Assembly: GCA_019454045.1 (NCBI GenBank)
Contig: SKCR01025328.1
Span: forward strand, 1 to 64,000
Direction: 5' to 3'
Length of the DNA: 64,000 nucleotides
DNA from: Zanthoxylum bungeanum
Lineage: Eukaryota; Streptophyta; Magnoliopsida; Sapindales; Rutaceae
Shown one piece after another: positions 25,403 through 59,498 of this stretch (positions are counted from its first letter, which is position 1; each line of letters starts with the position of its first letter). The translations under genes were made by a program, and so were the position numbers. The notes below the pieces were generated by a model. It did not search any database. It had not been told where the DNA came from and worked only from the letters and a program-made list of their open reading frames with translations.

Positions 25403-25629
25403 TGGGACTTGTGCAGTGTGTGACAATGACAATCCTATCAAAGTTATGCAATTTATTTTTACCTACCTAGCTAGCCAGCTGCCGCTTGGCTTGCATGTTG
25501 CTTCGAACTAAGTTGATCTGGTGTTGAGGTGCTGCGACCTCGAGGTTCATCCCTGCAAGATGCTGCGATCTCTAGGAATCCCTATCGAACTGAACTGATG
25601 AGAGGAGGTCCATTTTTGAACCGTTACTG

Positions 25630-27469: not shown

Positions 27470-28200
27470 AGAAAACCTTCAAAGTACTCGAGGCAACTCA
27501 AATCCGAGTGTTTGAATAAATGATCTGAACCAGACTCAAAGTGTGTGTGTGCCAAGGTTCTTTCGCAGCTTAATCCTTAAGTAAGCCAACTCGATGATTT
27601 TGTCTTGGAGAATTGGATTAGTGGGTCTAACCAACCTAAATGTCTTGATCATACTTTGTGATTACTTCCTCGTACTCAATATGATATGGTTTTCTTTTCT
27701 TTTGTCTCTTTTTTTTCTTTCTTTTCATTTTGAACTTCTTTTCTTTCTTTTCTTTTTCTTTTTCTCTTTTCTTCTTCTTTTTCTCTTTTCTTTCTTTCTC
27801 TTTCTTTTTTTTTCCGACACACCTACCCTTTAAGGTAGCATTTCTCCTCATGGTGGTCCTAATACTCGCCCATGGGTAGCTTCACACTTATCGGTTATAG
27901 GTGGTCTATTTTTTCCTTTTCTTTTCAAAGACTTTTTCTTCATTTCCAACCATATCATATATCGTAACATAAGTAAACCAGGACGGACATCTAGGCAAAT
28001 GGTCATTCACCGATCCGCCATCTCTTCAACTAGTCATCTCGCCGACTACTCAGGCTTCCATTGCTAAGATCCTCTAATTAAGTGCTGCGAGTCTATTCAA
28101 GATCAACTACTCAAAATATCGGATGAGAGTACTTCTCGCACTTATCGTTTTTAAGGTTTCACCCTGAAGAAAACAATTTCATTATCGGACTCATGCTTAA
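27470..28200 (-). other. Conserved non-coding block of the Ogre/Tat-like family (element 1 copy)
   Basis: Highly similar to 52256-52950 in element 2 although surrounding sequence has diverged. The core 27818-27910 (around CCTACCCTTTAAGGTAGC and CTAATACTCGCCCATGGG) differs from element 2 at only a few positions. It has no shared reading frame. A pyrimidine-rich tract lies at 27690-27815. The core contains CTACCCTTTAAGGTAG, a perfect inverted repeat. Confidence 0.75.
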
Positions 28201-29043: not shown

Positions 29044-29958
29044 GTTGGCTAGTGGTCTTTTGGTGAGTCTGCCCTCTTCCCTAACCTAACGGGTATCTAT
29101 GATGTCTTTTAAAACTACAAGTTAGCACGTATGCGTGCGATGCATGGAATGTATAAGTCGGCCCATTAGCATTTTAGAGCATTCAATCATACTATTGCGA
29201 GGTGCAAACTTGTCCCAGTTGAAAAGGCCCAACAGGTTTACACTTTTGCGATAACATGGCTAAATAACTTCAAATGATACGGGGCCTAAACATAAAGTGG
29301 ACCATCGGCATTTTAGAGGCTTTTGGCCCAATTGTCATAAAGCACGGACTCGTCCCAGTTTAAATGGCCCAACCAGCCCATATCTCATGACAAAAAGTCT
29401 AACTGAATCCAAATGACGATGGTCCTAAACGCAAGCATAAAGGAATATTTTCTATTGGTCCTACGACTACAGTTCATATGCGGGTTTATAAGGGTATAGG
29501 CAAAGGCTCTCGTCGATGAAGTGTTGCCCACAACTAGGTCTCCCAACTCAAGGGTCCGAGCGACCAAGTGAGCGCACCTTTTTTATACACTAAGGTACGT
29601 GCCAACGAGTTATGGTGCGTGACTGAATGTCAAATGGATTTCCCGTTGTAGATTCCCCAGAGGGAGGGTGGAGCGAACTCTCTTAAATACCCAAGCCTCT
29701 TAGGCTCTTATCGCTTGGTAACAGGAATAAACAACGAGTCCTCCAAATTAGTCCATAACAGTAAGCTACGAGTACATGATTATCTAGGTGCCTTCACAGC
29801 GTTTCCTTATAGAAAGGTAGTGAATGAAGGAAGACACCAAACCATTACCTAGCCTTAATAATTCCTTCGATTAAACCCCTTCAACCTACTATAGACACGG
29901 TTAACTAAAGCACAAATCACAATCATTACAAGACATTATTTCAGGGCCGATTCTCTAT
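29044..29958 (-). other. Leader of element 1 with tandem repeats
   Basis: Untranslated leader between primer-binding site and gag. Two repeats of about 145 bp (about 29158-29300 and 29301-29440) share GGCCCA, TCGGCATTTTAGAG, CTTGTCCCAGTT and CAAATGA phrases. The part next to the primer-binding site (29590-29958) is shared with element 3. No reading frame of note. Confidence 0.7.
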
Positions 29959-32020: not shown

Positions 32021-32114
32021 ATGCCATAATCACTAGGAGTGGAATGGAGGTAGGAATGCAAGACACTGCAGGTCCCACTAAGGATAATAGTGCAGATACC
32101 CCTCGGAAGATCAA

Positions 32115-32798
32115 ATGACACATATCCCAGTTAGAGTACCATTTCCTCAAGCTCTTAGGCCCACTACTAGAGCTGCAGACCCAAACGGTGAGATCCTAGA
32201 GCATCTTAAGCAAATAAAGATTAACCTTCCGTTGTTATATGTGATAAAACAAGTTCCCACATATGCGAAGGTTTTAAAGGATCTATGCACCATGAAGAGG
32301 AAGCATCACGTGAAGAAAATCGCATTCCTGATAAAGCAAGCCAGTGCAGTGATTGAACAAAATGGCCCACCAAAATATAAAGATCCGGACTGCCCCACCA
32401 TTACTTGCCACATCGGCACTTATGAGTTTGGTCAAGCTCTATTAGATTTAGGCGCGACTGTTAATCTCATGCCATACTCCATCTATATGCAGTTGGGGCT
32501 TGGGGAGATTAAGCCTACATCTGTGGTTTCACAACTAGCTGATCGCTCTGTGAGAACTCCACGGGGGGCAGTTGAGGATGTCTTATTCCAAATCGATAAA
32601 TTCTACAACCCAGTTGATTTTCTGATTCTAGACACCCAGTCTGTGGTTAAAACTGAATCCAAAATTCCTCTCATCTTGGGTAGACCTTTCCTTGCCACAG
32701 CCAATGCCCTTATTAACTGCAGGAATGGTCTCATGAAATTGTCATTCGGGAACATGACATTGGAAGTGAATATTTTTCACGTCGGGAAACAGCCATAA
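32115..32798 (+). pseudogene. Athila-like gag end and aspartic protease
   Basis: A 227-codon open piece of a larger polyprotein, so its first Met is not a real start. VPTYAKVLKDLCTMKRKHH is the gag-protease link typical of Athila. LLDLGATVNLMPYSIY is the protease active site, with DLG in place of DTG/DSG as is usual in Athila. ILGRPFLATANALI is the second conserved protease motif (ILGRPFL). The frame then ends at 32796 before reverse transcriptase. Confidence 0.9.
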
Positions 32799-33084
32799 GA
32801 TGACGATGAATGTCACCATACATACCTGATAGACACAATTGTGCCAGAAATAGCCTCATTCAACATGATTCTAACCCTCCTAATCATCTTCTTCTTAATT
32901 TAAACATCTTAGATACTCTTGACTCAACTGAACCTCCTGATATCTCTACTGGCTGTTCTGTTATGGAACAAGAGTGTGGCAGCCACAGTTTGAAGCTCTG
33001 TTAGGAGAAAGGGAGAAACATAAGCCTTCTACAGTCGAAACACCAACAGTTGAACTGAATCCATTACCATAAGGGCTTCAATAT

Positions 33085-34580
33085 GTGTTTCTTGGACCGG
33101 GAGATACCTTTCCTATTATTATTTCATCGGAGCTGAGTGCACCGCAAAGTAAGAAATTACTTGACATGTTAAGTGAGCATAAATTGGCACTTGGATGGAC
33201 CATAGGAGACATTAAAGGTATCAGCTCCTTGATTTGCTCCCACAAGATTCACCTAGAAGATGGAGCTATTCCTCTTAGAGACCCTCAACGTAGACTTAAC
33301 CCTACTATGAAAGAAGTGGTGAGAAATAAAGTTATAAATTTACTAGATGCGCGTATTATATACCCAATTGCTGATAGTAAATGGGTTAGTCCTACGCAGG
33401 ATGTTCTCAAAAAGTCAGGTGTTACTATTGTGCAAAACGAGGCAGGAGAACTAGTTCCTACTAAGGTAGTCACGGGCTGGAGCATGTGCATAACCTACAG
33501 GAAGTTGAATGCTGCCACTCGAAAAGACCATTTCCCTATCCCTTTTATTGATCATATTCTTGAGCGGGTAGCAGGTCACCCATTATACTGCTTTCTAGAT
33601 GGTTACTCAAGATACTACCAAATTGAGATCTCCTAATAAGATCAAGAAAAAACCACATTCACCTGCCCATTTGGTACTTATGCTTTTCGCCATATATCAT
33701 TTGGTTCATGCAATACCCCCGCCACTTTTCAGAGATGCATGCTGAGCATTTTTAGTGATATGATCGAGAAGTGTATGAAGATGTTTATGGATGCTTACTT
33801 AATCTGGAAGCAGTGTTAAGTCGATGTCAAGAAAAAAAGACTCGTCTTGAATTGGGAAAAGTTTCATTTCATGGTCCTTTCGGGAATTGTTCTAGGTCAT
33901 ATTGTTTCTTCCAAGGGCATTGAAGTCGACAAATCAAAAATCGAGTTATTATCCAAGCTGTCGATACCCAAAACTGTGAAAGATGTTCGATCTTTTCTTG
34001 GGCATGCTGGTTTCTATAGGAGGTTTATACAGAACTTTTCCTTGATATCTAGACCATTGTGTAACCTCATTGTTAAAGACTATTTGTTTGAATGGACACA
34101 AGAATGTGAAGATGCCTTCAAGACGTTAGTCACTAAACTCACCTCTGCCCCAATTATGCAACCACTTGACTGGAATTTACCATTTGAGATTATGTGTGAT
34201 GCTAATGACTACACAGTTAGGGTAGTGTTTGGACAAAGAAGATAAGGGAAACCTTTTGTCGTATATTATGCTAGCAGAACTCTAAACAATGCTTAAATGA
34301 ACTATTCCACAACTGAAAAAGAACTGTTAGTTGTGGTCTTTGCTTTGGACAAATTTCGTGCATACCTGATTGGTTCCCCCATCACTGTTTTTACTGATCA
34401 TACAACCGTTAAGTACCTTCTTTCGAAGATGGATGTTAAAATAAGATTGATTAGGTGAATCCTGTTGTTACAGGAATTCAATCTAAACATCAAAGATAAA
34501 AAATGTGTTGAAAATATGGAGGTAGATCACTTATCTCACTTGGAGTTTAACGACTCTGCTGATGGCCCACCAATTCGTGA
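33085..34580 (+). pseudogene. Athila-like reverse transcriptase and RNase H, broken
   Basis: Recognisable blocks include CSHKIHLEDG, QRRLNPTMKEVV, CITYRKLNAATRKDHFP and FLDGYSRYYQIEI, which holds the first catalytic Asp. A stop follows at 33634-33636, then TFTCPFGTYAF and FMDAYLIW, where the second catalytic Asp of the usual FMDD is Ala. Next come LNWEKFHFMV, RSFLGHAGFYRRFI, and RNase H with MCDANDY, YYASRTLNNA, TEKELLVVVFALDKF and TDHTTVKYL. Stops occur near 33820, 34243, 34296, 34458. A stretch is missing between FMDAYLIW and LNWEKF. It cannot be functional. Confidence 0.92.
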
Positions 34581-34689: not shown

Positions 34690-34976
34690 AAGCGTAAATT
34701 CTTGGTCGAGGTACATAATTTTTATTGGGATGATCCATATTTATTTAAATACTGCCCTGACAAGATATTGCGCCGCTGCATTCCTGAAGATGAATTTTTA
34801 AGCGTACTTACCTTTTGTCATTCCCATGCTTGTGGAGACCATTTCTCAGTAAAGAAAACTGCTACAAAAATCCTACAGTGTGGTTTTTATTGGCCCACTC
34901 TATTTAAGGATACAAATGGGTTCTGTCGTTCCTGTTAAAAGTGTCAAAAATTAGGTACAATATCCTGTCGTCATAT
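34690..34976 (+). pseudogene. Athila-like integrase zinc-binding region, truncated
   Basis: Contains CIPEDEFLSVLTFCHSHACG, the H-x-C...  part of the gypsy integrase H2C2 finger, then KTATKILQCGFYWPTLFKD and CRSCxKCQ. The integrase catalytic core is missing because the copia LTR starts at 34977. Confidence 0.85.
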
Positions 34977-37016
34977 TGTTGGAGTTCTACGGTCCCGAGG
35001 ATCGATTATTAAGCATAAAACACATGTGCGAATACAATGAGGAAGTTGCGGAATACTTACATTGAGCGATTGAGCGATGTAGTGGACACCAAAAATCAAC
35101 TTTCTGCCTCCTCCAAGTCACGGCAGTGAGCTGTTTTCCCTCTCCGAGATTCGACTTTGGTCCTCCATGCAAGCTCCAAGCTTGTGATGAAATGATTCCA
35201 TGCTCACGGGTGGGTTTCCCTATCACCTTCGTAAGACTCCGATGTGTGCTAGCACCCTTGATTTTTGCCACAAAAATCACTCTTTTCTTCCTTGTGTTTC
35301 ACGGTGAAAACAGAAACCAGAAGAAGAAATGGACTGCCCCATGGGCGAGAGAGAGGGAGAGGAAAAAGAGAGAGAGTGTGTTAGTTTTGTTTCTCAAAAT
35401 TGTGTATCTAATACACTTTTAAATTTCTAAAATTGATTTACCATTTTCTTTTTCCAAAAAATCAAATGGCATTAAAGTTTTGCCAACCACCACATCAACT
35501 ATTCACATCACTCAATCAATCAAGTGACAAGTTGTCACATCACTCAAAGTGACTAATGATTTGACGCTTGATGCGACTAGTGATTTGACGCTTGATTTGA
35601 CTTGCGTGCCGCACTCGAATTCGAAATGCGAATGCGCTCGCAAAAAATCCCAGGCTCGGGTTCGCTAATTCCAAATTAACGAATTTTTCGTTGCGACGTA
35701 ATTAAATGATTATGCCTAGCGAAATCAATATTCACATCGCTAACGAATTAATTCTAAATTAACTCGTTTGCCCGAATTAAAATATAATTTCAATTCCGCG
35801 TCGAAATCCAATTTCGTTTAATATATCGAATATATTAATTTAATCGATTAATTCCAAATTAATCGTTATTCTCTCTTTAAATGATATTTTATCCCAGATA
35901 AAATATCTCCGCAATTAATCCCTGATTAATTTTCTCTCTCTCTCTTCTAATTAATCCCAGATTAATTAAAGTGCGAGTCATACGTCATCGGTGAATCTTC
36001 GGGAAGCGACCCATGAGATCCCCGGATATGTTGGCAGTAAATTCGATCGTCGGACTATCCGAACACGTAAGTACCTAGTACTATATTTTTACCGATTTAC
36101 AAGACAAGGTTGGCTTCTAGCAAAGCGCCATGCCTACCCAATTCTCCAGAAACATGCTTACAGGAATAAGCGATCTATATCAGGTGTAGTATACGTAGTA
36201 TTGCGTATTTCGATCCAGTATCGGATGTCACGTACTAGGCCTGGGGCTGGAATTGTGTCTGCCCCGTACGAAGCACATGTCGGATGTCTGGTAACTAGTC
36301 TCTATAATCGGATAAACATGACCTTGTTATTTTATCCCGATGACTGCAGTACAGAAGAGAACCAGTACCGTATCCTACGTGACCATCATCTCCAGATGAC
36401 TGGAGTGATACTTCTGTCTTGACATCACACCCAACACACTACAATTCTCAATATACCCAGCAGAGGCGTACATAAAACTTGTTAAAGCCCTGGACGACCA
36501 AAAAAAAATTATATTGATTGTCGCAAGTATTAGCGGTGCAAGTCTCAGGTTAAGACCAAATACACCTACCCTGATTTCGGACTTCCATAGACACATAGTC
36601 ATACTACCAATGGAATTCCGAGGGGGTCTATCCAGAGAGAAGCTGTTTCTCGTACCATCGGTAAAACACAACCTCCTATTACACTTGCATGAGTATCATA
36701 TACCCAAATATATGAGAACTATGTCGTTGTGCCCTCACAACGCGCACAAGTGTAATACTAGTCTTTTACGCATTATCGATGTCCAATCTCGATAATACTC
36801 TGACTAGGGATATTTAATGATTATACCTTCGTGGATTGATACTGTCTCATATCATCTCAATCCAGGCACTAATCATAAGGACCTCCTATCATTTATACAT
36901 CTTGGTGATCTAATCACAAATGATAAGAGAGCAATCTCATTTGTCACATAGTTAATTTGTACAACAACACCATGATCTGTACAAATAGTGACGCTATGGG
37001 TCATAATTGTCCAACA
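34977..37016 (-). mobile_element. 3' LTR of copia element A (2040 bp)
   Basis: Plus-strand ends TGTTGGAGTTCTACGG and TAATTGTCCAACA (inverted TGTTGG/CCAACA). The middle has repeated GATTAATTCCAAATTAA and CCCAGATTAATT phrases (35680-35970). Reading frames here are not genes. Confidence 0.88.
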
Positions 37017-42809: not shown

Positions 42810-42823
42810 CCGCTCTGATACCA
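42810..42823 (-). other. Primer-binding site of copia element A
   Basis: Minus strand TGGTATCAGAGCGG, one base from the LTR. Complementary to initiator tRNA-Met. Confidence 0.9.
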
Positions 42824-42824
42824 T

Positions 42825-44490
42825 TGTTGGAGTTCTACAGTCCCGAGGATCGATTATAAAGCATAAAACACATGTACGATTACAACGAGGATTTTGCGGA
42901 ATACTTACATCGAGAGGTTGAATGATGCAGTGGACAACAAAAATCAACTTTCTGCCTCCTCCAAGTCACATCAGTGAGCTGTTTTCCCTCTCCAAGATTC
43001 GGCTTTGGTCCTCCATGCAAGCTCCAAGCTTGTGATGAAATGATTCCATGCTCACGGGTGGGTTTCCCTATCACCTTCGCAAGACTCCGATGTGTGCTAG
43101 CACCCTTGATTTTTGCCACATAAATCACTCTTTTCTTCCTTGTGTTTCACGGTGATAACAGAAACCAGAAGAAGAAATGGATTGTCCCATGGGCGAGAGA
43201 GATGGAGAGAAAAAAGAGAGAGAGTGTGTTAGTTTTGTTTCTCAAAATTATGTATCTAATACACTTTTCAATTTCTAAAATTGATTTACCATTTTCTTTT
43301 TCCAAAAAATCAAATGGCATTAAATTTTTGCCAACCACCACATCAACTATTCACATCACTCAATCAATCAAGTGACAAGTTGTCACATCACTCAAAGTGA
43401 CTAATGATTTGACGCTTGATGCGACTAGCGATTTGACGCTTGATTTGACTTGCGTGCCGCACTTGAATTCGAAATGCGAATGCGCTCGCAAATAATCCTG
43501 GGCTCGGGTTCGCTAATTCCAAATTAGCGAATTTTCCATTGCGACGTAATTAAATGATTATGCCTAGCGAAATCACTATTCACATCGCTAACGAATTAAT
43601 TCTAAATTAACTCGTTTGCCCGAATTAAAATCTAATTTCAATTCCACGTCGAAATCCAATTTCGTTTAATATATCAAATATATATTTAATTTAATTGATT
43701 AATTCCAAATTAATTGTTTTTATCTCTTTAAATGATATTTTATCCCAAATAAAATATCTCTATTATTAATCCCAGATTAATTTTCTCTCTCTCTTCTAAT
43801 TAATCCCAGATTAATTAAAGTGCGAGTCATACGTCATCGGTGAATCTTCGGGAAGCGACCCATGAGATCCCCAGATATGTTGGCAGTAAATTCGGTCGTC
43901 GGACTATCCGAACACGTAAGTACCTAGTACTACATTTTTACCGATTTACAAGACAAGGTTGGCTTCTAACAAAGCGCCATGCCTACCCAATTCTCTAGAA
44001 ACATGCTTACAGGAATAAGCGATCTATATCAGGCGTAGTATACGTAGTATTGCGTATTTCGATCCAATATCGGATGTCACGTGCTAGGCCTGGGGCTGGA
44101 ATTGTCTCTGCCCCGTATGAAGCACATGTCAGATGTCTGGTAACTAGTCTCTATAATCGGATAAACATGACCTTGTCATTTTATCCCAATGACTGCAGTA
44201 CATAAGAGAACCAGTACCATATCCTACGTGACCATCATCTCCATATGACTGGAGTGATACTTCTGTCTTGACATCACACCCAACACACTACGATTCTCAA
44301 TATACCCAGCAGAGGCGTACACAGAACCTGTTAAAGCCCTAGGCGACCAAAACCAAAGTATATTGATTGTCGTAAGTATTATCGGTGCAAGTCTCAGGTT
44401 AAGACCAAATACACCTACCCTGATTTCGGACTTCCATAGACACATATTCATACTACCAATGGATTTCCGAGGGGGTCTATCCAGAGCGAA
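42825..44490 (-). mobile_element. 5' LTR of copia element A, distal part missing
   Basis: Collinear with 34977-36640; similarity stops at CTATCCAGAGCGAAG, where the LTR of element C begins. The missing part equals about 370 bp at the end of the other LTR. Confidence 0.85.
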
Positions 44491-44491
44491 G

Positions 44492-46533
44492 TGTTGGTGT
44501 TTGCTAAGGTCCCAAGATCATTAAACAAGCATGAAACACATGTGAATACATACGAGGAGTTATGGAATACTCACATCGATCGGTTGAGCGACGCGCGAGG
44601 TAATAAAAATCAAATTTCTGCCTGCATGGACTGCTCGGCAGTGAGTTGCAGTGGCTTCTCCAAATTCGACCATTGTTGCTCCTTGAACAAGCTCCAAGCT
44701 TCGTCAAACGATTCCAAGCTCATGGGTGGACTTCCCTATCACATTCGCATGACTTCGTAGTGTGCTAGCACTCCCGATTTTTCCATAAAATCGCGACTCT
44801 TATGCTTCCCATTGCTCTCGGTTTTGAGCCAAAACCAGTGAACAAAACAGCCCCAATGGCGTGTGAAGAGAGAATAGAAGAAGTGAGAGAGAGATGATCA
44901 GAGAAAGAGAGAGTTGTGTGTGTTTATTTCAAATTTGTGTATCTAATACCCAAATGTGAATTTCAAATTCATTTACAATGAATTTGGTTTTCAAAAAGTC
45001 AAGCATTTAATGCTCCAACCACACACATCACTTCCCATCAATCAATCAAGTTGTCAAGTCACATCACTCAAAGTGACAAGTGATTTGACGCTTGATGTGA
45101 CTGACGATTTGACGCTTGATATGACTTGCGTGCCGTACTCGAATTCGAAATACGAATGCGCTCAAAAACAATCTCGGGCTCGGGTACGCTAATTCAAAAT
45201 GAATTTTCCATTGCGACGCAATTAAATGATTACGCCTAGCGAAGTCACTATTCACGTCGCTAACTATTTAATTCTAAATTAATTCGTTCGCCCGAATTAA
45301 AATCTAATTTCAATTCCGCATCGGAATCCTATTTCATTTGATATATCGAATATATAAATTTATCGATTAATTCCAAATTAATCGTTATCTCTCTTTAATT
45401 GATATTTTATCCCAGATAAATATCTCCGCAATTAATCCCAGATTAATTCTCTCTCTCTTCTAATTAATCCCAGATTAATTTAGAGTGTGAGTCATACATC
45501 ATCGGTGAATCTTCGGGAAGCGACCCATGAGATCCCCGGATATGTTGGTAGTAAATTCGGTCGTCGGACTATCCGAACACGTAAGTACCTCGTACTACGT
45601 TTATACCGATTTACAAGACAAGGTTGGCTTCTAGCAAAGCGCCATGGCTACCCAATTCTCCAGAAATATCCTTACAGGAATAAAGGATCTATAACAGGCG
45701 TAGTATACGTACTATTGCGTATATCGATCCAGTATCGGATGATCACATGCTAGGCCTGGGGATGGAATTGTGTCTGCCCCGTACGAAGCACATGTCGGAT
45801 GTCTGGTAACTAGTCTCTATAATCGGATAAACATGACCTTGTCATTTTATCCCGATGACTGCAGTACTTAAGAGTACTAGTACCGTATCCTATGTGACCA
45901 TCATCTCCATATGACTGAAGTGACACTTTCGTCTTGACATCACACCCAACACACTGCGATTCTCAATATATCTAGCATAGGCGTACACAGAACCTGTTAA
46001 AGCCCTGGACGACCGCAACCAAAGTATATTGATTGTCGTAAGTATTAGCGGTGGAAGTCTCAGGTTAAGACCAAATACACCTACCCTGATTTTGGACTTC
46101 CATAGACACATAGTCATACTACCAATGGAATTTCGAGGGGGTCTATCCAGAGCGAAGCTATTTCCCGTACCATCGGTAAAACATGACCTCCTATTACACT
46201 TGCATGAGTATCCTATACCCAAATATATGAGAACTATGCCGTTGTGCCCTCACAACGCGCACAAGTGTAATACTAGTCTTTTACGCATTTATCGATGTCC
46301 AATCTCGACAATGCTCTGACTAGGGATATTTAATGATTAATCCTTCGTGGACTGATACTGTCTCATATCATTCTCAATCCAAGAACTAATCATAGGGACC
46401 TCCTATCATTTATACATCTAGGTGATCTAATCACAAATGATAAGAGTGCAATCTCCTTTGTCACATAGTTAATTTGTTCAACAACACCATGATCTGTACA
46501 AATAGTGATGCTATGGGTCATAATTGTCCAACA
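44492..46533 (-). mobile_element. 3' LTR of copia element C (2042 bp)
   Basis: Plus-strand ends TGTTGGTGTTTGC and TAATTGTCCAACA. Related to the element A LTR throughout but more diverged in the first 500 bp. Followed on the right by a polypurine tract (minus strand GGCCAAGTGGGAGAT, 46534-46548), so this is a 3' LTR of a minus-strand element. Confidence 0.85.
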
Positions 46534-48387: not shown

Positions 48388-48687
48388 TGTTAGGAAACAT
48401 AATCCCTAATATATTTACATGTTTGTCCTCTTAGGATCTAACCATACATGTATTAATAGTCCTAGATTTATTTACATGCTAATTGAAATAAATCTATACT
48501 AACCACAACACAATTTCATACCTTTTAAGCTTGTAGAGACCTCTTAATCAAACTTAATTGATTGCTTAACTCAATAAGCAAATGGTCTTATTTATAGGAG
48601 GGAAACCAAGTCACTATTAGCTCACATGCATGAATTACTATTAATTCTTGATTACTATTTAATCACATGCATTGATTACTATGTAAT
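48388..48687 (-). mobile_element. 5' LTR of copia element D, left part (split by element 2)
   Basis: Plus strand starts TGTTAGGAAACATAATCCC beside the primer-binding site. The LTR is interrupted at 48687 by Ogre/Tat-like element 2 and continues at 59499. GTAAT (48683-48687) is the target duplicated by that insertion. Confidence 0.85.
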
Positions 48688-51600
48688 TGTAGACAACAGG
48701 ACCTGGGCGACGCCGTCCTAGGCTCGCGGCCTAGCTGAGAAGTATGAAATAACATGGAGTCGCCACCCGGTGTGAACCGGGACAAAGATTTAAGGCCGCA
48801 CTCACTCCTCGCAGGAGAAGACCTCAAACCGTTGGGTTCGGAATGATCTCTTACTTTATGTCACTTGTAATGTTTGTGATTTGTGTAATATTAACCGAGT
48901 CTACTTAGCATGCATGCTCAAGGGTACTTATATCTAACATGCTTTCATCCAAATAATTCCACGCAATATAACACAACGAGCACATTGAATCATTACATTA
49001 ACATGTATAAATCATTACCCAAACACATCATAAACTAATAACATGCATAAAGGACAACCTAAATATGCTTTAACAAATAAATAACAAACTAAACTAAATC
49101 ATGCTTTAAATAATAAACGAATAACCTAAAGGCTATAACATGCTCAAATACAAATTCGGATGAGACGATATATGTGTATCTTAAGTGGTACGTGGCATTG
49201 TATCCCGAGTGCAGACCGCACTACCATCCATTCGGAATCGGCTACGGAATTTACGTCCGGGTTTCCATTCGATATACCGCAAGCAAGAACACATATTCCA
49301 TTCATCCGAAATCACATCACATACTAAGTCATTATTTCATGCGAACAAAATAAATTACATGCCTCTTAATTCGCTAATCCATACAAATAAAACAAATTAC
49401 ATGCTTTCTGATTCATTAATTCATGCGAATAAAAATAACAAATTAACTAAGAAATAAATGACGATATAATAAAATAGGTGCCCTCAGGTCTTACCTTTTA
49501 GTCGCTATCCGGGAGTGCGTTCCACGGTGCCGGAAGGGTTATCATCCCACTGTTCTCACTGATCCGTTGTTTCCGCTGTTTTGTCCGGGTTCACCATTTT
49601 CATTATTTTCGTCCGTTTTCAACGGATTTGATGTTTTCACTGTTTCCACAGGTTCACTGTTTCTGTTGTTTTCTCAGGTTCACTCGTTATTTTCACTCAT
49701 GATTTTTCTGTGTTTTTCCTCTATTTCACTCGCTGTTTTCTCTCTGTATTTTAACTCAAATTCTCATTCTCTCTTGGATTATTCTTGGCTCGTTTTGGAG
49801 TTATTTCTGTCACGGTTTTTTGGGCTGTCAAGGTTAGGGTTTCAGTCACAATTATGGCTCGGTTAGGACAGTTTGTGGTCGATAGTGTGTGCGTGTGATG
49901 GGCTGCTGGCGTGAGGTTACTTCACGTGGGTTTGATGGTGCATGGGCAGTGCAGTGGGTTGCATAGAAATTGTGGTGTGCTCGGCAGTGAGTGATGTGAT
50001 GTGATTTGTCTCGCGGCAGTAGGGGTGATCAAGGCTCATTGATGAAGGGTTGTTGGTCTCGGCGGTGAATGGTGCAGTGGCTGGTGGTGTTTGGTGCAGC
50101 TCGGATTGGCAGTTAAGGGCGTGCGTGGAGTGCGGTGCAGCTCGGCTTGGCAGTTTCAGGGTTGTGTGGCAGTGCAGCTCGCATGGAGTACTCGGTAGCA
50201 TGGTTCATGTGAGTTATGTGTTGTGTGGCTGTTATTAACGTGTGAATCAAGGCCAATTGGTGGCAGTTTTCTTTTGTCGCATGAATGAAGGCAGATTGTG
50301 TTTACATGTGCGTGAACTGCAGTGAGGTGAAGGGTTTGTGAAGGCAGTCTTTTTGGCGTGTGGAAGGGCTGATGGATGAAGGCTAATGGTGATTGTGATG
50401 TCGAGAGCTGTGTGTGCATTAAGGGTTTCAGTTCTTCAGGTGTCACATGGTTCAAGTCTCGGCAATGAAGGTTTTGTGAAGATGATGAAGAGGATGCTCG
50501 TTGATGGGGCGTGAATCAGGTCGGGGAGGAAAATATGAAGGCTAATGGCGTGGAGTTTAGGGTTTGTTGGTGATCTTGAAGGTTTACATGCTAAAGGAGG
50601 GCTGTGAAGATGATGATGATGGTCGGCGTGTCTTGGTACCTCTTTCCTCTGGTGCGTGTGTGTTGGGTTAGGCGTGAATGAAAGATGGTGAGATTCGTGG
50701 TGTCTTAGTGTTGGTGATGAGTTAAAAGGGTTCTATGGCTGTGTGGGTTCACGTCTGCGTGAAGGAGGAGCAATGTTGGCGTGAGGTTGTTTAGGGTTTC
50801 ATGGCTGTGTGGGTTCACGTCTGCGGTAGTATGTAGGGCTGGTTGTGATGATCAATGGAAGAAGGGTTCAGCTAGGGTCAGTGGGTTTGCATGGAGGGCT
50901 GGTTCACGGTGATGGTTTTTGGACGTCAAGGATCATGATCAGTGGCGTGAAGGAAGGCTCATTTGAAGGCAGCCGTGAGTGTGATCAGGTCCAGTCTCGG
51001 GTCTGAGAGTTGTTGCCGAGAAGCTTGGGGGTAGTTGATGGGTGTTGATGATCAGTTGTTGTCTTGTTTCATGGAGATGGTCGAGAGTTGTGGTGAGAGA
51101 TCCAGGAGAGTCAGAGGCTGCCGAGAGTGATGGATGAAGGGTAGTGAGTGACTGTAGGGTTTGTTGGCTGGGAGTGGAGTTTACGTGAAGGGTGATGAAG
51201 GTCTGTTGTGTTGTAGGTGTCCCCCCTTGCCGAGAGCAGTTCCCGAAGATTGATGATTGTAAGGGATCACATGGGTTTTTGACAATTGGAGATAAGGCTT
51301 TTTTGGAAGAGGACATGGGTGCATTTGTTATGTAAGGTGGCAGCAAGTTGTCTTTGGTGGGGGTGGCGTTTGTTGAAATAAAAAAGTGGTGGGAAGTTGT
51401 TGTTGAATAAAATGAAAAAGAAAATGAAGATGGGGTATATTTGTTTGTTTGTTATTGGAAAGAATGAGGGGGGGTGGTTCACGTGCATGTGGAGGAATAT
51501 TGGTATTGAAATGTGAAAGGTGGCAGTGAATAATGGGTATGGCCGACCGATATGGGTTATTTGTGGGGAATTATTAGAGAGAGAGAATATGTGAGGGAAA

Positions 51601-51810
51601 GAGCGAGGAAAAGGTTCCGAGCGAGGGATAATTTGAAAAGGAAAAGGTGAAGACGAACCGGAAGCAAAACAAACGAATAAAATCCATCAAAAAGTCAATT
51701 CTTGACTTTGCCCTTCCGGCGACCGCTTCCGCAACTTCCGCAACTAAAAAAAGTAGTGCCTCCATTCGAGGCTCATCATTGGGCTGGTATGCAAAAATGC
51801 AATGCCTACA
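48688..51810 (-). mobile_element. 3' LTR of element 2 (3123 bp)
   Basis: Plus-strand ends TGTAGACAACAGG and AATGCCTACA. Nearly identical to 56389-59493. Shares the family blocks GAAGACCTCAAACCGTTGGG (48816) and GTGCCCTCAGGTCTTACC (49480) with elements 1 and 3. The half facing the element is GT-rich on the plus strand. Frames within it are not genes. Confidence 0.93.
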
Positions 51811-51826
51811 GTCGCCCCACTTTGAT
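51811..51826 (-). other. Polypurine tract of element 2
   Basis: Minus strand ATCAAAGTGGGGCGAC directly before the LTR start TGTAGGCATT. Confidence 0.85.
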
Positions 51827-52002
51827 GGGATTTGTTCAGTGTGTGCCAGAGACAATCCTATCAAAGTTCGTGCAATGCATTTTTTACTTACCTGGCTCGC
51901 CAGCTGCCACCTGACTCACCTGTTGCTTCGAACTGAATTGATATGATGGCGAGGTGCCTCGACCTCTGGGCTTTGTTCCCGAACCACCGAATGTGAACTG
52001 TG

Positions 52003-52168
52003 ATGATGATGCAGTGGGCCCTCGACCCTAGAATGCCATACCTGGCGAAACTGATAGTGATGTGGGCCTCAACCCGCAGAGTGCCGTACCCGGCAAAGAC
52101 TGATACTGATAATGATGCGGGCCTCAACCCGCAGAGTGCCGTACCCGGCAAAAATTGATAATGATGCA
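52003..52168. repeat. Short tandem repeat in element 2 (three copies, about 50 bp)
   Basis: Copies share GGGCCTCAACCCGCAGAGTG and CCGTACCCGGCAAA, with GATAATGATGC between. It occupies the place of the 85-bp and 33-bp arrays of element 1 but has different sequence. Confidence 0.85.
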
Positions 52169-52255
52169 AATGATTTATTTCGACATACTATATTGCTCTC
52201 CTCGAGACAATCTTAATAGCTAAACATATTTTCATCCTCAACGAATGCTTCGTGT

Positions 52256-52950
52256 CGAAACCAGAGAACCTTCAAAGTACTTTGATACACTCAACTCCGA
52301 TCGTCTGAATAGGTGATCTGAACTAGACTCCTAGTGTGTGTGTGTGCTAAGGCTCTTTCGCAGCTTGTTCCTTAAGTGGGCCAACTCGATGATTTCGTTT
52401 CAGAGAATCGAACCAGTGGGTCTAACCAACCTGGATGTCTTAATCACATTCTGTGATTACTTCAGCATACTCAACATGATATGGGTTTTCATCTTTTTTT
52501 TTCTTTTGTCTCTTTCTTTTTTTTTCTCTTTTTTTTTCTCTTTTTCTTTTCTTTTCTTTTCTTTTTCTGACACACCTACCCTTTAAGGTAGCATTTCTCC
52601 TCATGGTGGTCCTAATACTCGCCCATGGGTAGCTTCACGCTTATCGGTTATAAATGGTCTATTTTTTCTTCTTTTCTTTTTTATTATATTTCAGAGACTT
52701 TTTTCTTTATTTCCAACCATATCATATATCATAGCATCGGTAAACAAGTGTGGACACCCAGGCAAACGGTCATTCACTACTACATTATCTCTTCAACTAG
52801 TCACCTCGATAACTACTCAGGCTTCTACTGCTAGGATCCCGTAGTCAAGTGCTCGTGAGTCTAACTAAGATCAATCTATTCAGGATACCGGAAGAGAGCG
52901 TGTCTCGCACTTATCGTTTCTAGGGTTCCCCCCTACAGCATTCAATGTCA
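52256..52950 (-). other. Conserved non-coding block (element 2 copy)
   Basis: Counterpart of 27470-28200, including AACCTTCAAAGTACT, GTGGGTCTAACCAACCT, a pyrimidine tract (52490-52570) and the nearly unchanged core 52568-52665. Lies directly downstream (element sense) of the LOG insertion. Confidence 0.75.
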
Positions 52951-52984
52951 TCACCGGACATATGTCTAATTATCAAAGACTTCT

Positions 52985-53195
52985 CTCACTCATTTTTTTT
53001 CTTCTTCTTTTTTTTTTTCAATTTTTTTTTCTTTTCTTTTCTTTTTTTTTCTCTTTTTTTCACTCTTTTTTTTTTTTTTTTTACTTTTTTCATTCAATTT
53101 TTTTTTTTCTTCTTCTTTTTTTTTTTCATTTTTTTCTTTTTTTTCATCTTTTTTTTTTTTTTACTTTTTTCATTCATTTTTTTTTTTCATAATTA
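52985..53195 (-). other. A-rich tract downstream of LOG, possible poly(A) relic
   Basis: About 200 bp that on the minus strand is almost all A with scattered G and T. It starts about 75 bp after the LOG stop codon, and element 1 lacks it at the corresponding place. Position, strand and absence from the sister element fit a degraded poly(A) tail of a captured mRNA; a simple slippage-expanded tract is the alternative. Confidence 0.6.
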
Positions 53196-53269
53196 AAATG
53201 AAATACAAACTTTTCAAATAAAAACACAAACTTTCAAATAGGCCTGGGATACCTGGTCAGCAGGGCACA

Positions 53270-53922
53270 TTACCGATTCAGATCAATGTCCAATTTGCGC
53301 TTCTTGCCACGATCACTATCAGTCCAGTCCAATTTGGAGATGATAGGGTCAAGCTTCGGCTCAAAAGCCAGGATCTGGTCAATCAACTCTTCGGCCTTTG
53401 TTGCCGTCAGGAAAATGTCTTCCACAGATTTGGTGACAAATTCATGTCTCTTGGCTTCCGCAAGAAACACAAACAGGAAATCGAAGAAGTGCTCAATATT
53501 AAGCAACCCGATGGGTTTCCGGTGAACGTTTAGGGTGGCCCATGACGCCACTGTAAATATTTCTTCGAATGTGCCAAGTCCACCTGGTAATGCAATGAAC
53601 GCATCTGCAGTATTAATCATTTCATGGAGTCGTTCATACATACCTGATACAATGCGCTCGTCTCCATTTGTTGGCCCGATTAACTGTTCATCTGCCAAAG
53701 GTCTCGGGATGATTCCCAAAACATTACCGCCACCATCTTGAACGGCTTTTGAAACAGCTCCCATCATTCCCAGATTGCCACCGCCATATACCAAGTGCAT
53801 GTTTTTCGCAGCCATGACTCGCCCCAATTCCTTAGCAGCTTCCAAGAATTTAGGTATGTTACCAGGGTTAGATCCACAGAAGACACAAATTTCTTGAATC
53901 GTTGCTGTGATGTAGCTTCCAT
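53270..53922 (-). pseudogene. LOG-like: Captured LOG-type cytokinin riboside 5'-monophosphate phosphoribohydrolase
   Basis: LOG enzymes release active cytokinin bases from their nucleotides in the cytosol. From ICVFCGSNPG (53890) to the stop at 53270 there are 206 uninterrupted codons. They include VYGGGNLGMMG, a YERLHEM block with the conserved Arg, ADAFIALPGGLGTFEE (the PGGxGTxxE signature with the catalytic Glu), and KPIGLLNI. The tail is unusual and basic (GKKRKLDIDLNR). Plant LOG genes normally have several introns; none is seen. The likely original start, ATG at 53922 (MEATSQQRFK), is one base out of frame with ICVF, implying a 1-bp loss around 53891-53894. In the LOG frame the reading stays open upstream to an ATG at 54178 (302 codons; another at codon 28), so an N-terminally extended protein is possible. 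Sense orientation equals the element's. Confidence 0.92.
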
Positions 53923-54500
53923 CTTTTTTTTTTTTTTTACTTGGATGTATATTTGAATGTGTTGAGGAGAGCAATGCCGCTGAATTTATAGGACCTGCAA
54001 AAGAGGTGAATAATAATTGCAATAAATATTCCACTGAATGACGGTTAGCTAAATCACAAAAGAAGTCATCAGAAGTCAAGAAAGGCCATCGGATCATGTC
54101 TGCAAAAACAACGAGAGAAATCGTGAGAGATGTCAAAAAGTTGTGGATTCGTTCCAGGAAAATAACAGAAAATAACAAAGGAGATCGTGATACGTCAAAA
54201 AGCTGTGGATTCTTTCAACGAAAATAACAGAAAATACCAAAGGAAGCTCTAAAATGTCAAAAAGTTGTGGATCTTTTCCACTTCAACATGTCGTGAATGG
54301 TCCAAACAGTTATAGATTTCTGCCACCATTAATGAATTATCTCCCATTCTGTGATTGCCAAGCACCAATCCCTATGTCCTAACTTGCTCCGCCTTTGCTT
54401 TTACCTGCAAAAATAACACAAAATTAGAGATTTTACAAGAACATGAAACAGGAATCACAGCAACTTGCATAGGTTGCCTCCCTTTCAGCATTAACTTCAT
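53923..54500 (-). other. Region upstream of LOG in element 2, with acceptor-like motifs and a tandem repeat
   Basis: The first 75 bases upstream of the LOG ATG (53923-53997) may be LOG 5' UTR. On the minus strand T-rich tracts ending TTTGCAG occur at about 53995, 54100 and 54405, resembling splice acceptors. Nothing in the upstream part of the extended frame (codons 1-80) resembles a known protein. Confidence 0.55.
54131..54280. repeat. About 62-bp tandem repeat, three copies
   Basis: Copies begin with (T/A)(G/C)GTCAAAAAG(T/C)TGTGGAT-like text at about 54131, 54192 and 54255 and share GAAAATAACAGAAAATA. Located just upstream of LOG in element sense. Confidence 0.8.
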
Positions 54501-54501
54501 T

Positions 54502-54680
54502 GTCTTCAGCCAGACATGATCGAAGTTCTCTGTCAGTGTGGCATCACCGTCGTCTTAGTGCTTGCCGCTTTTGATCTTCTGCTTTCCTTGCTCCGCCTTT
54601 GTTCATCGTCTTCAGCCAGACATGACCGAAATTCTTCTGTCATCGTGGCTTCACCGTCGTCTTTTGTGCTCGCCGTTTTT
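54502..54680. repeat. 106-bp tandem duplication in element 2
   Basis: GTCTTCAGCCAGACATGA starts at 54502 and again at 54608, followed in both by (A/T)TCACCGTCGTCTT-like text and GCTCGCCG/GCTTGCCG. CTTGCTCCGCCTTTG also recurs (54383, 54588). No gene. Confidence 0.8.
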
Positions 54681-55084
54681 TTTTTTTTTTTGCTGCTTTC
54701 TTCTTTCTCTTTCTTTTTTTTCTTTAAACCTGCAAATACAAAACAACAGAATAAATACGTGTGCATGTAAGTATGCAAGTGTAGAGATACTCCCTTTTCG
54801 TGATGGGTTGGATCTTCATTGTGCTCCTCGGCACCACATGTCTCTGGTTGCTCTCTGCTGGCTTTCTTCTGAAATCTGCAAAAACACAAGACAAAACAAA
54901 GGATGCAAGTTACGTGTATGCATGGATGAATTCCCTATCCCGTTGGGTTAGGCCTTCTGCCGTTTCCTTGGTGACTGCTCAGTCTTCTATCCTTGCAGCC
55001 AGTGTAGCTTCAATTTTGCTTACATCGACCAACTCGGTGAATTCCTTCTTTCCCAAATCTGGTAGTCTCTTGCCCTTTTTTTTT
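54681..55084 (-). other. Element 2 spacer with two repeated acceptor-like segments
   Basis: On the minus strand two related segments each contain AACCCA...GGGA, a CATACACGT/CACACGTA phrase, CTTGCAT, and a T/G-rich tract ending TTTGCAG (at about 54877 and 54731). One copy exists in element 1 (27050-27140). No protein domain recognised. Confidence 0.5.
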
Positions 55085-55384
55085 TAACTTTCTGTCTTTT
55101 CTGCTTACTTCTTCTGATAATTCTCTGTGTTGCAGGTACCTCTGAACATTGTGATACCGAGGCTTTCTGTCATCAGCTTCCACATCCGATATCCTTTCTG
55201 TCTCATACAGCGGCTTGCTTGTAGTTGTCAGCACAAGTGGTCTCGTCACCAATTTTTTTTTATCTTCCCAAGTCGAGGCTAGTGTCGCCAATGCATCTGT
55301 CATCCGATTCCTTCGGCAAGTGTTGAAATTACAATCAGGGTTAGTCTGTACCAGACTTCTGAGGTAGAACTTGTATGGCTTCAA
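55085..55384 (-). pseudogene. Ogre/Tat RNase H C-terminal relic
   Basis: Contains NRMTDALATLASTWED, the end of the RNase H domain in Tat/Ogre pol, followed by RPLVLTTTS, an SDVEADDRKPRYHNVQRYL linker and SRKDRKLKK, the stretch leading to integrase. Nothing of integrase follows. It lies directly downstream of the gag relic, so most of pol has been deleted. Confidence 0.85.
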
Positions 55385-55417
55385 TCATTCTTTCTTTAAC
55401 TCTCATTCTCCTTGCAT

Positions 55418-55685
55418 CTATAACTTTTCAAACATTTTGACAACGGATTTCTCAAGCTGAGAGAGTTTTCTGTTTCTGAGAGAAGCAATCTTTGAGGAAG
55501 TAGGCTCAGTCTTTGAAGGTTTTCCAACGATCTTTTCATTCTGGTTGCACAAGTCTCTGTTACTAGCTGTACAAGGCACGGTCAAACTGGTCACATCATT
55601 GGTCAGGACTTGCAATGCTCAGCAACTCGGCTACCTTGGCTTCCAATTGATCTAGGCAGGATTCTTTGTCAGCTGACTCACTCAT
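55418..55685 (-). pseudogene. Ogre/Tat gag N-terminal relic
   Basis: Starts MSESADKESCLDQLE at 55685 and, after a 1-bp frameshift near 55615, continues LQVLTNDVTSLTVP to KMFEKL and a stop. It aligns with the first 90 residues of the gag frame in element 1 (28360-29043). The C-terminal His-Cys motif is missing. Confidence 0.85.
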
Positions 55686-55734
55686 ACTGTTTGATGATTC
55701 TTTGACAAATCTCTCCTCTTTCCCAACCCAACAG

Positions 55735-56368
55735 GAGTCTACTATGGCTTTTAAGACAAAAGAGGTTAACATGATGCGTGTATGCGTGACATGATGTATG
55801 ATGTAAACATTTTCAAAAATAATTTACTTTAATTGGCCCGTATCATTTTAAAGTATTCAATCACACTATTGCGCAATGCAAACTTGTCCCAGTTGAAAAG
55901 GCCCAACAAGTTTACACTTTTGCGATAACACGGCTAAATAACTTCAAATGATAAAAGGCCCACACACAAACTGGCCCATCGGTATTTAGAAATTTCGGCC
56001 TAATTGTCAAAGGACATGAACTTGTCCCGGTTTAAACGACAACGAGTTCATATTTTTTAACAAATAGTCCAACTAAATCCAAATGACAACGGTCCAAAAC
56101 ACAAACATAAAACAAACTGGCCCATCGGCATTTCAGAAATGTTTGACCTAATTGTCAAAAGGACATGAACTTGTCCCGATTTAAACGAAAACGAGTTCAT
56201 AACTCTTAACAAAGAGTCCAAATAAATCCAAATGACAACAGTCCAAAACACAAACATAAACACAAATGACAACAGTCTAAAACACAGGCATAAACACAGT
56301 AGTCATGATTAATTAAAACACAAATCACAAACATTACAAGATATCATTTCGGAGCCAATTCTCTATAT
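55735..56368 (-). other. Leader of element 2 with about 146-bp tandem repeats
   Basis: Three related units (about 55835-55970, 55971-56116, 56117-56270) share ACTGGCCCATCGG, CTAATTGTCAAA, GAACTTGTCCC and CAAATGACAAC. Element 1 has two related units. No reading frame of note. Confidence 0.75.
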
Positions 56369-56385
56369 CCCCAGTGGAGTCGCCA
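56369..56385 (-). other. Primer-binding site of element 2
   Basis: Minus strand TGGCGACTCCACTGGGG, three bases inside the 5' LTR. Unmutated, unlike element 1. Confidence 0.9.
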
Positions 56386-56388
56386 GAC

Positions 56389-59300
56389 TGTAGACAACAG
56401 GACCTGGGCGACGCCGTCCTAGGCTCGCGGCCTAGCTGAGAAGTATGAAATAACATGGAGTCGCCACCCGGTGTGAACCGGGACAAAGATTTAAGGCCGC
56501 ACTCACTCCTCGCAGGAGAAGACCTCAAACCGTTGGGTTCGGAATGATCTCTTACTTTATGTCACTTGTAATGTTTGTGATTTGTGTAATATTAACCGAG
56601 TCTACTTAGCATGCATGCTCAAGGGTACTTAGATCTAACATGCTTTCATCCAAATAATTCCACGCCATATAACACAACGAGCACATTGAATCATTACATT
56701 AACATGTATAAATCATTACCCAAACATCATAAACTAATAACATGCATAAAGGACAACCTAAATATGCTTTAACAAATAAATAACAAACTAAACTAAATCA
56801 TGCTTTAAATAATAAACGAATAACCTAAAGGCTATAACATGCTCAAATACAAATTCGGATGAGACGATATATGTGTATCTTAAGTGGTACGTGGCATTGT
56901 ATCCCGAGTGCAGACCGCAACCATCCATTCGGAATCGGCTACGGAATTTACGTCCGGTTTTCCATTCGATATACCGCAAGCAAGAACACATATTCCATTC
57001 ATCCGAAATCACATCACATACTAAGTCATTATTTCATGCGAACAAAATAATTACATGCCTCTTAATTCGCTAATCCATACAATAAAACAAATTACATGCT
57101 TTCTGATTCATTAATTCATGCGAATAAAAATAACAAATTAACTAAGAAATAAATGACGATAAATAAAATAGGTGCCCTCAGGTCTTACCTTTTAGTCGCT
57201 ATCCGGGAGTGCGTTCCACGGTGCCGGAAGGGTTATCATCCCACTGTTCTCACTGATCCGTTGTTTCCGCTATTTTGTCCGGGTTCACCGTTTTCATTAT
57301 TTTCGTCCGTTTTCAACGGATTTGATGTTTTCACTGTTTCCACAGGTTCACTGTTTCTGTTGTTTTCTCAGGTTCACTCGTTATTTTCACTCATGATTTT
57401 TCTGTGTTTTTCCTCTATTTTCACTCGCTGTTTTCTCTCTGTATTTTAACTCAAATTCTCATTCTCTCTTGGATTATTCTTGGCTCGTTTTGGAGTTATT
57501 TCTGTCACGGTTTTTTGGGCTGTCAAGGTTAGGGTTTCAGTCACAATTATGGCTCGGTTAGGACAGTTTGTGGTCGATAGTGTGTGCGTGTGATGGGCTG
57601 CTGGCGTGAGGTTACATCACGTGGGTTTGATGGTGCATGGGCAGTGCAGTGGGTTGCATAGAAATTGTGGTGTGCTCGGCAGTGATGTGATTTGGTCTCG
57701 GCAGTAGGGGTGATCAAGGCTCATTGATGAAGGGTTGTTGGTCTCGGCGGTGAATGGTGCAGTGGCTGGTGGTGTTTGGTGCAGCTCGGATTGGCAGTTA
57801 AGGGCGTGCGTGGAGTGCGGTGCAGCTCGGCTTGGCAGTTTCAGGGTTGTGTGGCAGTGCAGCTCGGCATGGAGTACTCGGTAGCATGGTTCATGTGAGT
57901 TATGTGTTGTGTGGCTGTTATTAACGTGTGAATCAAGGCCAATTGGTGGCAGTTTTCTTTTGTCGCATGAATGAAGGCAGATTGTGTTTACATGTGCGTG
58001 AACTGCAGTGAGGTGAAGGGTTTGTGAAGGCAGTCTTTTTGGCGTGTGGAAGGGCTGATGGATGAAGGCTAATGGTGATTGTGATGTCGAGAGCTGCTGT
58101 GTGCATTAAGGGTTTCAGTTCTTCAGGTGTCACATGGTTCAAGTCTCGGCAATGAAGGTTTTGTGAAGATGATGAAGAGGATGCTCGTTGATGGGGCGTG
58201 AATCAGGTCGGGGAGGAAAATATGAAGGCTAATGGCGTGGAGTTTAGGGTTTGTTGGTGATCTTGAAGGTTTACATGCTAAAGGAGGGCTGTGAAGATGA
58301 TGATGATGGTCGGCTGTCTTGGTACCTCTGTCCTCTGGTGCGTGTGTGTTAGGGTTAGGCGTGATGAAAGGATGGTGAGATTCGTGGTGTCTTAGTGTTG
58401 GTGATGAGTTAAAAGGGTTCTATGGCTGTGTGGGTTCACGTCTGCGTGAAGGAGCAATGTTGGCGTGAGGTTGTTTAGGGTTTCATGGCTGTGTGGGTTC
58501 ACGTCTGCGGTAGTATGTAGGGCTGGTTGTGATGATCAATGGAAGAAGGGTTCAGCTAGGGTCAGTGGGTTTGCATGGAGGGCTGGTTCACGGTGATGGT
58601 TTTTGGACGTCAAGGATCATGATCAGTGGCGTGAAGGAAGGCTCATTTGAAGGCAGCCGTGACTGTGATCAGGTCCAGTCTCGGGTCTGAGAGTTGTTGC
58701 CGAGAAGCTTGGGGGTAGTTGATGGGTGTTGATGATCAGTTGTTGTCTTGTTTCATGGAGATGGTCGAGAGTTGTGTGAGAGATCCAGGAGAGTCAGAGG
58801 CTGCCGAGAGTGATGGATGAAGGGTAGTGAGTGACTGTAGGGTTTGTTGGCTTGGGAGTGGAGTTTACGTGAAGGGTGATGAAGGTCTGTTGTGTTGTAG
58901 GTGTCCCCCCTTGCCGAGAGCAGTTCCCGAAGATTGATGATTGTAAGGGATCACATGGGTTTTTGACAATTGGAGATAAGGCTTTTTTGGAAGAGGACAT
59001 GGGTGCATTTGTTATGTAAGGTGGCAGCAAGTTGTCTTTGGTGGGTGGCGTTTGTTGAAATAAAAAAGTGGTGGGAAGTTGTTGTTGAATAAAATGAAAA
59101 AGAAAATGAAGATGGGGTATATTTGTTTGTTTGTTATTGGAAAGAATGAGGGGGGTGGTTCACGTGCATGTGGAGGAATATTGGTATTGAAATGGTGAAA
59201 GGTGGCAGTGAATTAATGGGTATGGCCGAATATGGGTTATTTGTGGGGAAATTATTAGAGAGAGAGAATATGTGAGGGAAAGAGCGAGGAAAAGGTTCCG

Positions 59301-59493
59301 AGCGAGGGATAATTTTGAAAAGGAAAAGGCGAAGACGAACCCGAAGCAAAACAAACGAATAAAATCCATCAAAAAGTCAATTCTTGACTTTGCCCTTCCG
59401 GCGACCGCTTTCCGCAACTTCCGCAACTAAAAAAAGTAGTGCCTCCATTCGAGGCTCATCATTGGGCTGGTATGCAAAAATGCAATGCCTACA
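56389..59493 (-). mobile_element. 5' LTR of element 2 (3105 bp)
   Basis: Ends TGTAGACAACAGG and AATGCCTACA, followed by target duplication GTAAT. It differs from 48688-51810 by small indels (for example CACTACCATCC against CAACCATCC near 56918) and few substitutions. It would carry the promoter that transcribes the element and LOG. Confidence 0.93.
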
Positions 59494-59498
59494 GTAAT

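Follow-up and report, generated by a model that had tools for sequence, protein, structure and literature searches.

How does a gene of the LONELY GUY (LOG) family come to stand inside an LTR retrotransposon, and what would it do there? This question is raised by the window, by which we mean the whole stretch of 64,000 nucleotides of Zanthoxylum bungeanum that was analysed (contig SKCR01025328.1). A LOG-type frame lies here between the long terminal repeats of an element, called element 2 below; a related element without LOG, element 1, lies elsewhere in the window. The features used in the analysis are given by position and strand.

28363 to 29085, minus: gag-derived open reading frame of element 1 (without LOG, no pol found)
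48683 to 48687, no strand: target site duplication (TSD) GTAAT, left copy
48688 to 51810, minus: 3' LTR of element 2, TGTAG...CTACA, set by self-BLAST and termini
51811 to 51827, minus: purine-rich, PPT-like stretch adjoining the 3' LTR, AAAGTGGGGCGAC on the minus strand, taken for the polypurine tract (PPT) from its position
52237 to 52959, minus: internal segment common to element 1 (27444 to 28190, about 80% identity)
52993 to 53187, minus: A-rich low-complexity tract 3' of LOG (T-rich on plus)
53273 to 53923, minus: LOG-family frame P0001, 217 residues, with PGGLGTFEE, R98, E121 and the tail GKKRKLDIDLNR; stop codon at 53272 to 53270
53767 to 53922, minus: start ATG of the family (53922), set by alignment of relatives, and a 52-codon frame MEATSQQRFKK..., shifted by one base against the LOG body at codon 11
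53270 to 54097, minus: longest frame that starts with an ATG (54097) and takes in the LOG body
53980 to 53990, minus: TATAAATTCAG, TATA-box-like, preceded by a TTTTGCAG/GTCC junction resembling a 3' splice site
55013 to 55384, minus: open frame without Pfam match, earlier called an RNase H relic, not confirmed
55409 to 55727, minus: decayed gag relic matching the element 1 gag frame in two pieces (51% and 39%), with one internal stop
56368 to 56385, minus: PBS-like TGGCGACTCCACTGGGGA, presumably resembling the primer binding sites (PBSs) of OTA/Tat elements
56389 to 59493, minus: 5' LTR of element 2
59494 to 59498, no strand: TSD GTAAT, right copy

Comparison of the window with itself by BLAST revealed two long repeats (48688-51812 and 56389-59495) that are 98.4% alike, gaps included. 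Inspection of their termini refined the borders to 48688-51810 and 56389-59493, with ends TGTAG...CTACA, and the element so delimited (48688-59493) is flanked on both sides by the 5-bp TSD GTAAT. The PBS-like TGGCGACTCCACTGGGGA was found at 56385-56368 on the minus strand, as a single copy in the window when both strands were searched. This orientation indicates that the element reads on the minus strand and that LOG lies in its sense direction. Paired LTRs, TG..CA ends, a TSD, a PBS-like site and a PPT, the last by position only, characterize the whole as an LTR retrotransposon. The two LTRs differ by 17 substitutions over 3095 aligned sites and by 24 gaps (K2P 0.0055). Rates in use for LTR dating, between 1.3e-8 and 2e-9 per site per year, place the insertion at about 0.2 to 1.4 million years. 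Element 2 is a recent insertion.

We searched element 2 for further coding sequence. No pol domain appeared in a Pfam scan of the open segments of at least 60 aa on its minus strand (11 of 12 scanned), the LOG families alone scoring above the cut-off. Two internal relics had been proposed by the first-pass annotation. The gag relic could be retained, although indirectly, through its match to the element 1 gag frame (51% over 69 residues, E 1.3e-18, one stop within), whereas the supposed RNase H gave no Pfam match up to E 10 and was not confirmed. From the gag relic, the 3.1-kb LTRs and the presumed type of PBS, rather than from any RT/RH/INT phylogeny, element 2 looks like a non-autonomous, OTA/Tat-like member of Ty3/gypsy. 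According to the accessible part of PMC6317226, most OTA (Ogre/Tat/Athila) elements possess large non-coding regions as well as additional ORFs, and 5-bp TSDs were found in 93.4% of the elements analysed there. Element 2 resembles the OTA elements described there in its large LTRs and 5-bp TSD, and also in that an additional gene, in sense, follows the gag-pol region and precedes the 3' LTR, as in their eORF-3'F, for example the plant mobile domain of Ogre. It differs from them in that this gene encodes a LOG fold, not a plant mobile domain, and in that no polyprotein was found.

In the self-BLAST, elements 1 and 2 had in common the segment 52237-52959, gag and leader pieces (55469-55622 and 55835-56111) and LTR pieces (coordinates of element 2), and nothing across 52960-55468. 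The gag frame of element 1 has 19 relatives, one of them with PF03732. No pol was detected in the 7 of 8 minus-strand open segments of at least 60 aa of element 1 that were scanned. Since no pol was found in element 1, we regard it as a deletion derivative, and its lack of LOG says little on when LOG was gained. A fresh capture, which had been deduced from this absence, was rejected for that reason and because LOG belongs to an old clade spread over several species, as described below.

The frame P0001 matched the profiles PF03641 (E 1.9e-33), PF18306 (7.9e-18) and TIGR00730 (3.7e-46), and its best relatives in the PDB were AtLOG3 (2a33), in first place, and AtLOG8 (1ydh). An AlphaFold model built from 32 aligned sequences had a mean pLDDT of 85.8, with residues 1-5 and 204-217 below 50; used as a Foldseek query, it retrieved 2a33 as the top structure (E 4.6e-21, TM by target 0.95, 43% identity). 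The score against the NCBIfam equivalog NF058542 (110.9 bits, cut-off 300) carries little weight without a canonical plant LOG as control. These matches, together with the PBS-like site, uphold the first-pass annotation in so far as it had placed an uninterrupted LOG-family frame, in sense, inside an element with matching LTRs and TSD, and its PGGxGTxxE signature is indeed intact (PGGLGTFEE). No second trace of LOG was found in the window, all remaining tblastn matches having E values of 3 or worse.

The residues of the active site were compared with those of CgLOG. P0001 residues 6-181 aligned with residues 7-182 of 5its by HMMER, so that window residue numbers are one lower than those of CgLOG. 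In PMC4979012, Arg99 and Glu122 are the proposed catalytic residues of CgLOG, and alanine changes at AMP-binding or catalytic residues, S19A excepted, almost abolish activity; P0001 has the corresponding R98 and E121. The same paper proposes, by superposition, a prenyl site made of Met96, His97, Lys100, Glu125 and Trp129, identical in AtLOG3, OsLOG and CpLOG. At this prenyl/adenine pocket P0001 reads M-Y-L-T-W in place of M-H-K-E-W. The window copy therefore resembles plant LONELY GUY proteins (AtLOG3, AtLOG8) in its fold, its PGGxGTxxE and its Arg98/Glu121, but differs from them in three of the five pocket residues (H96Y, K99L and E124T, at His97, Lys100 and Glu125 of CgLOG), in its basic LxLxL-type tail and in belonging to a clade of its own.

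An intact signature does not make an intact gene. The closest relatives start with MEATSQQRFKRICVFC or nearly so, and the window has the same ATG and ten codons at 53922; the frame that opens there is then one base out of phase and stops after 52 codons. The longer leader from the ATG at 54097 does not resemble the N-termini of the relatives listed. The one-base shift sits within an A-rich stretch and may have arisen after the insertion, before it, or in the assembly. With its start codon out of frame, the window copy is probably dead as an enzyme, and the earlier description of it as an intact, usable gene does not hold.

In order to place this LOG among its relatives, we retained the best 120 of the 6471 homologs of P0001 found at E 1e-3, and the best 120 of 7999 scored in a second search started from a Xanthoceras member of the clade. 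Among the former, the 13 closest by identity (80-89%) were unnamed ENA proteins, and the named rows in the matches listed came from Reevesia, Diplodiscus, Populus and Xanthoceras. Among the matches listed, the second search added proteins of Acer and Paulownia together with many canonical ones of LOG7 type; the canonical rows are mostly of that type because they come from this one search. Many rows are unnamed metagenome proteins, and the relatives are known here from protein rows. A quick tree, built from 94 rows, gave a support of 96 to a clade of 71 rows; the 94 were the window protein, 3 outgroup rows and 90 homologs left once near-duplicates had been taken out of the 170 with a length of 188-265 aa (191 homologs in all). 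The main tree, built after the tails had been cut off, used 65 of these rows chosen by hand and called tailed any row that was neither canonical nor Sapindaceae-type. It separated 48 rows, including the window, from 17 canonical rows, including the outgroup, with a support of 100/100. These 48 comprised 45 rows of the tailed clade, supported by themselves at 100/99, and 3 Sapindaceae-type rows. When the label was instead set by the tail pattern, the quick tree needed 6 changes, because 11 clade rows are without the pattern: 6 Sapindaceae-type rows, and P0007, P0009, P0030, P0051 and P0142, which have cut or different ends. The tailed clade of the main tree included P. trichocarpa LOGL10 (P0037). 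By these comparisons the LOG of the window belongs to an old eudicot clade and has not been copied afresh from an ordinary LOG of the host.

For further counts the rows were sorted by hand into 33 canonical, 20 Sapindaceae-type (some unnamed), 14 window-close and 127 other clade rows. A basic stretch with an LxLxL-like C-terminal tail was present in 127 of 141 clade rows, in none of 31 canonical rows and in none of the 20 Sapindaceae-type rows. By its motifs this tail may be a nuclear-import and EAR-like signal; our literature search, which covered the EAR motif with LOG, returned no paper on the tail, nor any on the change of the pocket. The M-H-K-E-W pocket was intact in 33/33 canonical and 17/20 Sapindaceae-type rows, and in 0/14 window-close and 1/127 other clade rows. 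Conversely, PGGxGTxxE was kept in most rows of all four groups (33/33, 15/20, 12/14 and 116/127 in the same order), and R98 together with E121 was found in 33/33, 18/20, 2/14 and 118/127. Both K99 and E124 were lost in 139 of the 141 clade rows, E124 being kept in two and K99 in one. The sole clade row with an intact pocket, P0061, has the tail and forms the first branch of the tailed clade, and is in this sense a natural intermediate. This suggests an order of events: it looks as though the tail was gained first and the pocket lost second, the phosphate/ribose site being held throughout. Within the window-close branch the catalytic Arg98 is replaced by Gln in 12 of 14 rows (P0002-P0004, P0006-P0010, P0017, P0022, P0025 and P0039), leaving Arg in the window copy and P0005 only, which may speak against any hydrolysis in that branch.

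With the pocket residues replaced, activation of cytokinin by the clade appears doubtful, and the window copy is frame-shifted besides, so that the label of cytokinin-activating enzyme given by the first-pass annotation can hardly be kept. Its proposal of a recently captured, mobile host LOG able to alter cytokinin dosage agrees with the LOG fold and PGGxGTxxE, with the sense orientation within young LTRs and with the retention of R98 and E121. However, the shifted start, the changed pocket, the deep split of the clade from canonical LOGs and an identity to AtLOG3 of only 43% make this proposal highly improbable.

We next asked whether the clade as a whole travels with elements. Among the matches listed, at least 26 cluster representatives came, by hand count, from Reevesia pubescens; they comprise 151 member sequences, not necessarily all of one genome, and their locus tags bear 13 chromosome labels. 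Three Paulownia proteins were 96-99% identical to the clade member P0155. In its accessible part, PMC9289625 reports that LTR-element consensuses of Citrus sinensis and C. clementina contain a YgdH domain, as do those of P. trichocarpa if its filter is left off; it describes this result as "in line with" the work of Steinbauerova 2011 and mentions LONELY GUY. An association of LOG with Gypsy elements is consequently already in print for Citrus and P. trichocarpa. In our literature search, with subscription journals mostly outside it, this was the only paper with LOG/YgdH in plant LTR elements, as far as the accessible texts go. These elements and the one described here are alike in carrying a LOG-type extra domain in plant Ty3/gypsy; the window element differs in being non-autonomous with a frame-shifted LOG, and the accessible part of PMC9289625 gives no tail, pocket, promoter or phylogeny. 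No Citrus rows occurred in either list of the best 120 homologs, so that the clade of the Citrus YgdH proteins lies outside our comparison. The same source describes Gypsy_Pa_2799 of Phalaenopsis, a Tat-family element that has likewise gained a host enzyme domain (AlkB/2-ODD), but in that case the domain is an RNA demethylase active in vitro, and the large elements (about 25 kb) possess gag as well as pol. As for the LOG literature, PMC3866579 counts, in its accessible part, 13 LOG genes in Populus, and the terms retrotransposon, transposable, tandem and intron, taken as whole words, are absent from its main text; PMC11593424 sorts plant LOGs into five groups, with element-borne LOGs unmentioned in its accessible part.

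Two explanations may be given for this distribution. Either the tailed LOGs are an ordinary, much duplicated nuclear family of eudicots from which the element took one member fairly recently, or the clade itself is carried by elements. The former agrees with the listing of clade members as genes in the source annotation (LOGL10, Populus) and with the lack of LOG in element 1, but accounts poorly for the Reevesia figures and for YgdH in the LTR-element consensuses of Citrus and poplar; we consider it unlikely. Judging from the dispersal of the relatives, from the accessible part of PMC9289625 and from the present element, the whole clade is probably, though not provably, element-borne.

Relatives were also sought in contig collections. 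A scan of viral contigs gave 25 loci with 24-40% identity, none above 40%, and a scan of genome contigs gave no loci. An IMG/VR contig of 37984 bases, classed viral, bears at 1310-1660 a partial LOG relative with 40% identity over residues 3-119.

The sequence upstream of LOG was then compared with the N-termini of the relatives. TATAAATTCAG starts at 53990 on the minus strand, 68 nt upstream of the family ATG and directly after TTTTGCAG/GTCC. The longer N-termini of P0002, P0006, P0106 and P0119 read FQVYKFS or SQPYKFS, as would translated TATAAATTCAG DNA, two of these being window-close rows and two Xanthoceras rows. No such echo was present in P0127, P0128 and P0160, which also have longer N-termini, and the extensions of P0024 and P0029 are too short to tell. 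The stretch would suit either a promoter of LOG's own or an acceptor site to which a subgenomic mRNA is spliced, and expression under the LTR promoter alone, as once supposed, is not supported. More than the coding sequence seems to be inherited in the clade, since the TATA stretch recurs in relatives, and its echo in both window-close and Xanthoceras rows also argues against an ordinary gene family. It further bears on the idea that an LTR element already in place received, by chance, a LINE-type processed retrocopy of a LOG-like mRNA. Such a retrocopy would leave an uninterrupted frame with an A-rich tract after it, as seen here, where the sense strand has a tract of 195 nt about 83 nt past the stop, but an mRNA copy would not carry a promoter-like TATA stretch, here echoed in four relatives. 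Moreover, other bases break up the A-rich tract, and a comparable one, T/C-rich, lies at 52486-52568, in the segment common to both elements. A chance retrocopy is accordingly quite improbable.

The explanation that we favour, and consider somewhat more likely than not, is that of an element with an extra LOG-like gene between gag and the 3' LTR, belonging to a clade that would have been spread by such elements and would encode a nuclear hydrolase or binder. In working copies the gene would most likely be read as a short separate mRNA, which either starts at a TATA box of its own or comes from the LTR transcript, spliced to the adjoining acceptor-like site. The product would be a nuclear hydrolase or binder of nucleotide 5'-monophosphates with changed base preference, and its basic LxLxL tail would recruit host factors. 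Nuclear import, corepressor binding and the separate mRNA are all readings of motifs. Only tentatively do we go further and suggest that an ancient eudicot LOG-like clade became a retrotransposon accessory, keeping its nucleotide-5'-phosphate site, gaining a tail (nuclear import and EAR-like LxLxL) and then dropping the cytokinin pocket, to serve OTA/Tat elements in the nucleus as a hydrolase or binder of nucleotides and either to recruit host corepressors or to shield the element.

An element-borne clade would mean that retrotransposons in several eudicot families have taken over the fold of a hormone enzyme, through an ordered change in which the tail was gained, the pocket lost and the nucleotide site kept. 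The automatic label "cytokinin riboside 5'-monophosphate phosphoribohydrolase" would then probably be wrong for its high-copy proteins, which matters for counts of the LOG family. The Populus LOGL10 proteins P0037, P0064 and P0101, which are annotated in this way, have a pocket that reads M-S-L-H-W. Should the product indeed be an accessory protein, many "LOGL10"-type genes would be genes of mobile elements and not cytokinin enzymes. The specialist interest lies in the clade rather than in the window copy.

Other repeats were noted in the window. An LTR-like sequence occurs three times (34975-36647, 42823-44495 and 44492-46157; 95% and 84-87% alike), two copies lying head to tail; a narrow check for TG..CA ends with a TSD found none in these three copies. 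Motifs of the initiator-Met PBS type lie at 42823 and 48386 on the minus strand. Fragments of a Ty3/gypsy-type polyprotein, with aspartyl protease (PF13650) and RT_RNaseH_2 (PF17919), occupy 32091-34245 on the plus strand. An open frame at 23480-23923 (plus), which we liken to the pre-integrase region of Ty1/copia, ends at the edge of element 1, which gives the impression of this element being nested in a copia element. Finally, element 1 contains at 25596-27044, between a gag piece and the LTR, two tandem arrays with units of 85 and 33 bases; arrays of such kind are common in OTA elements.
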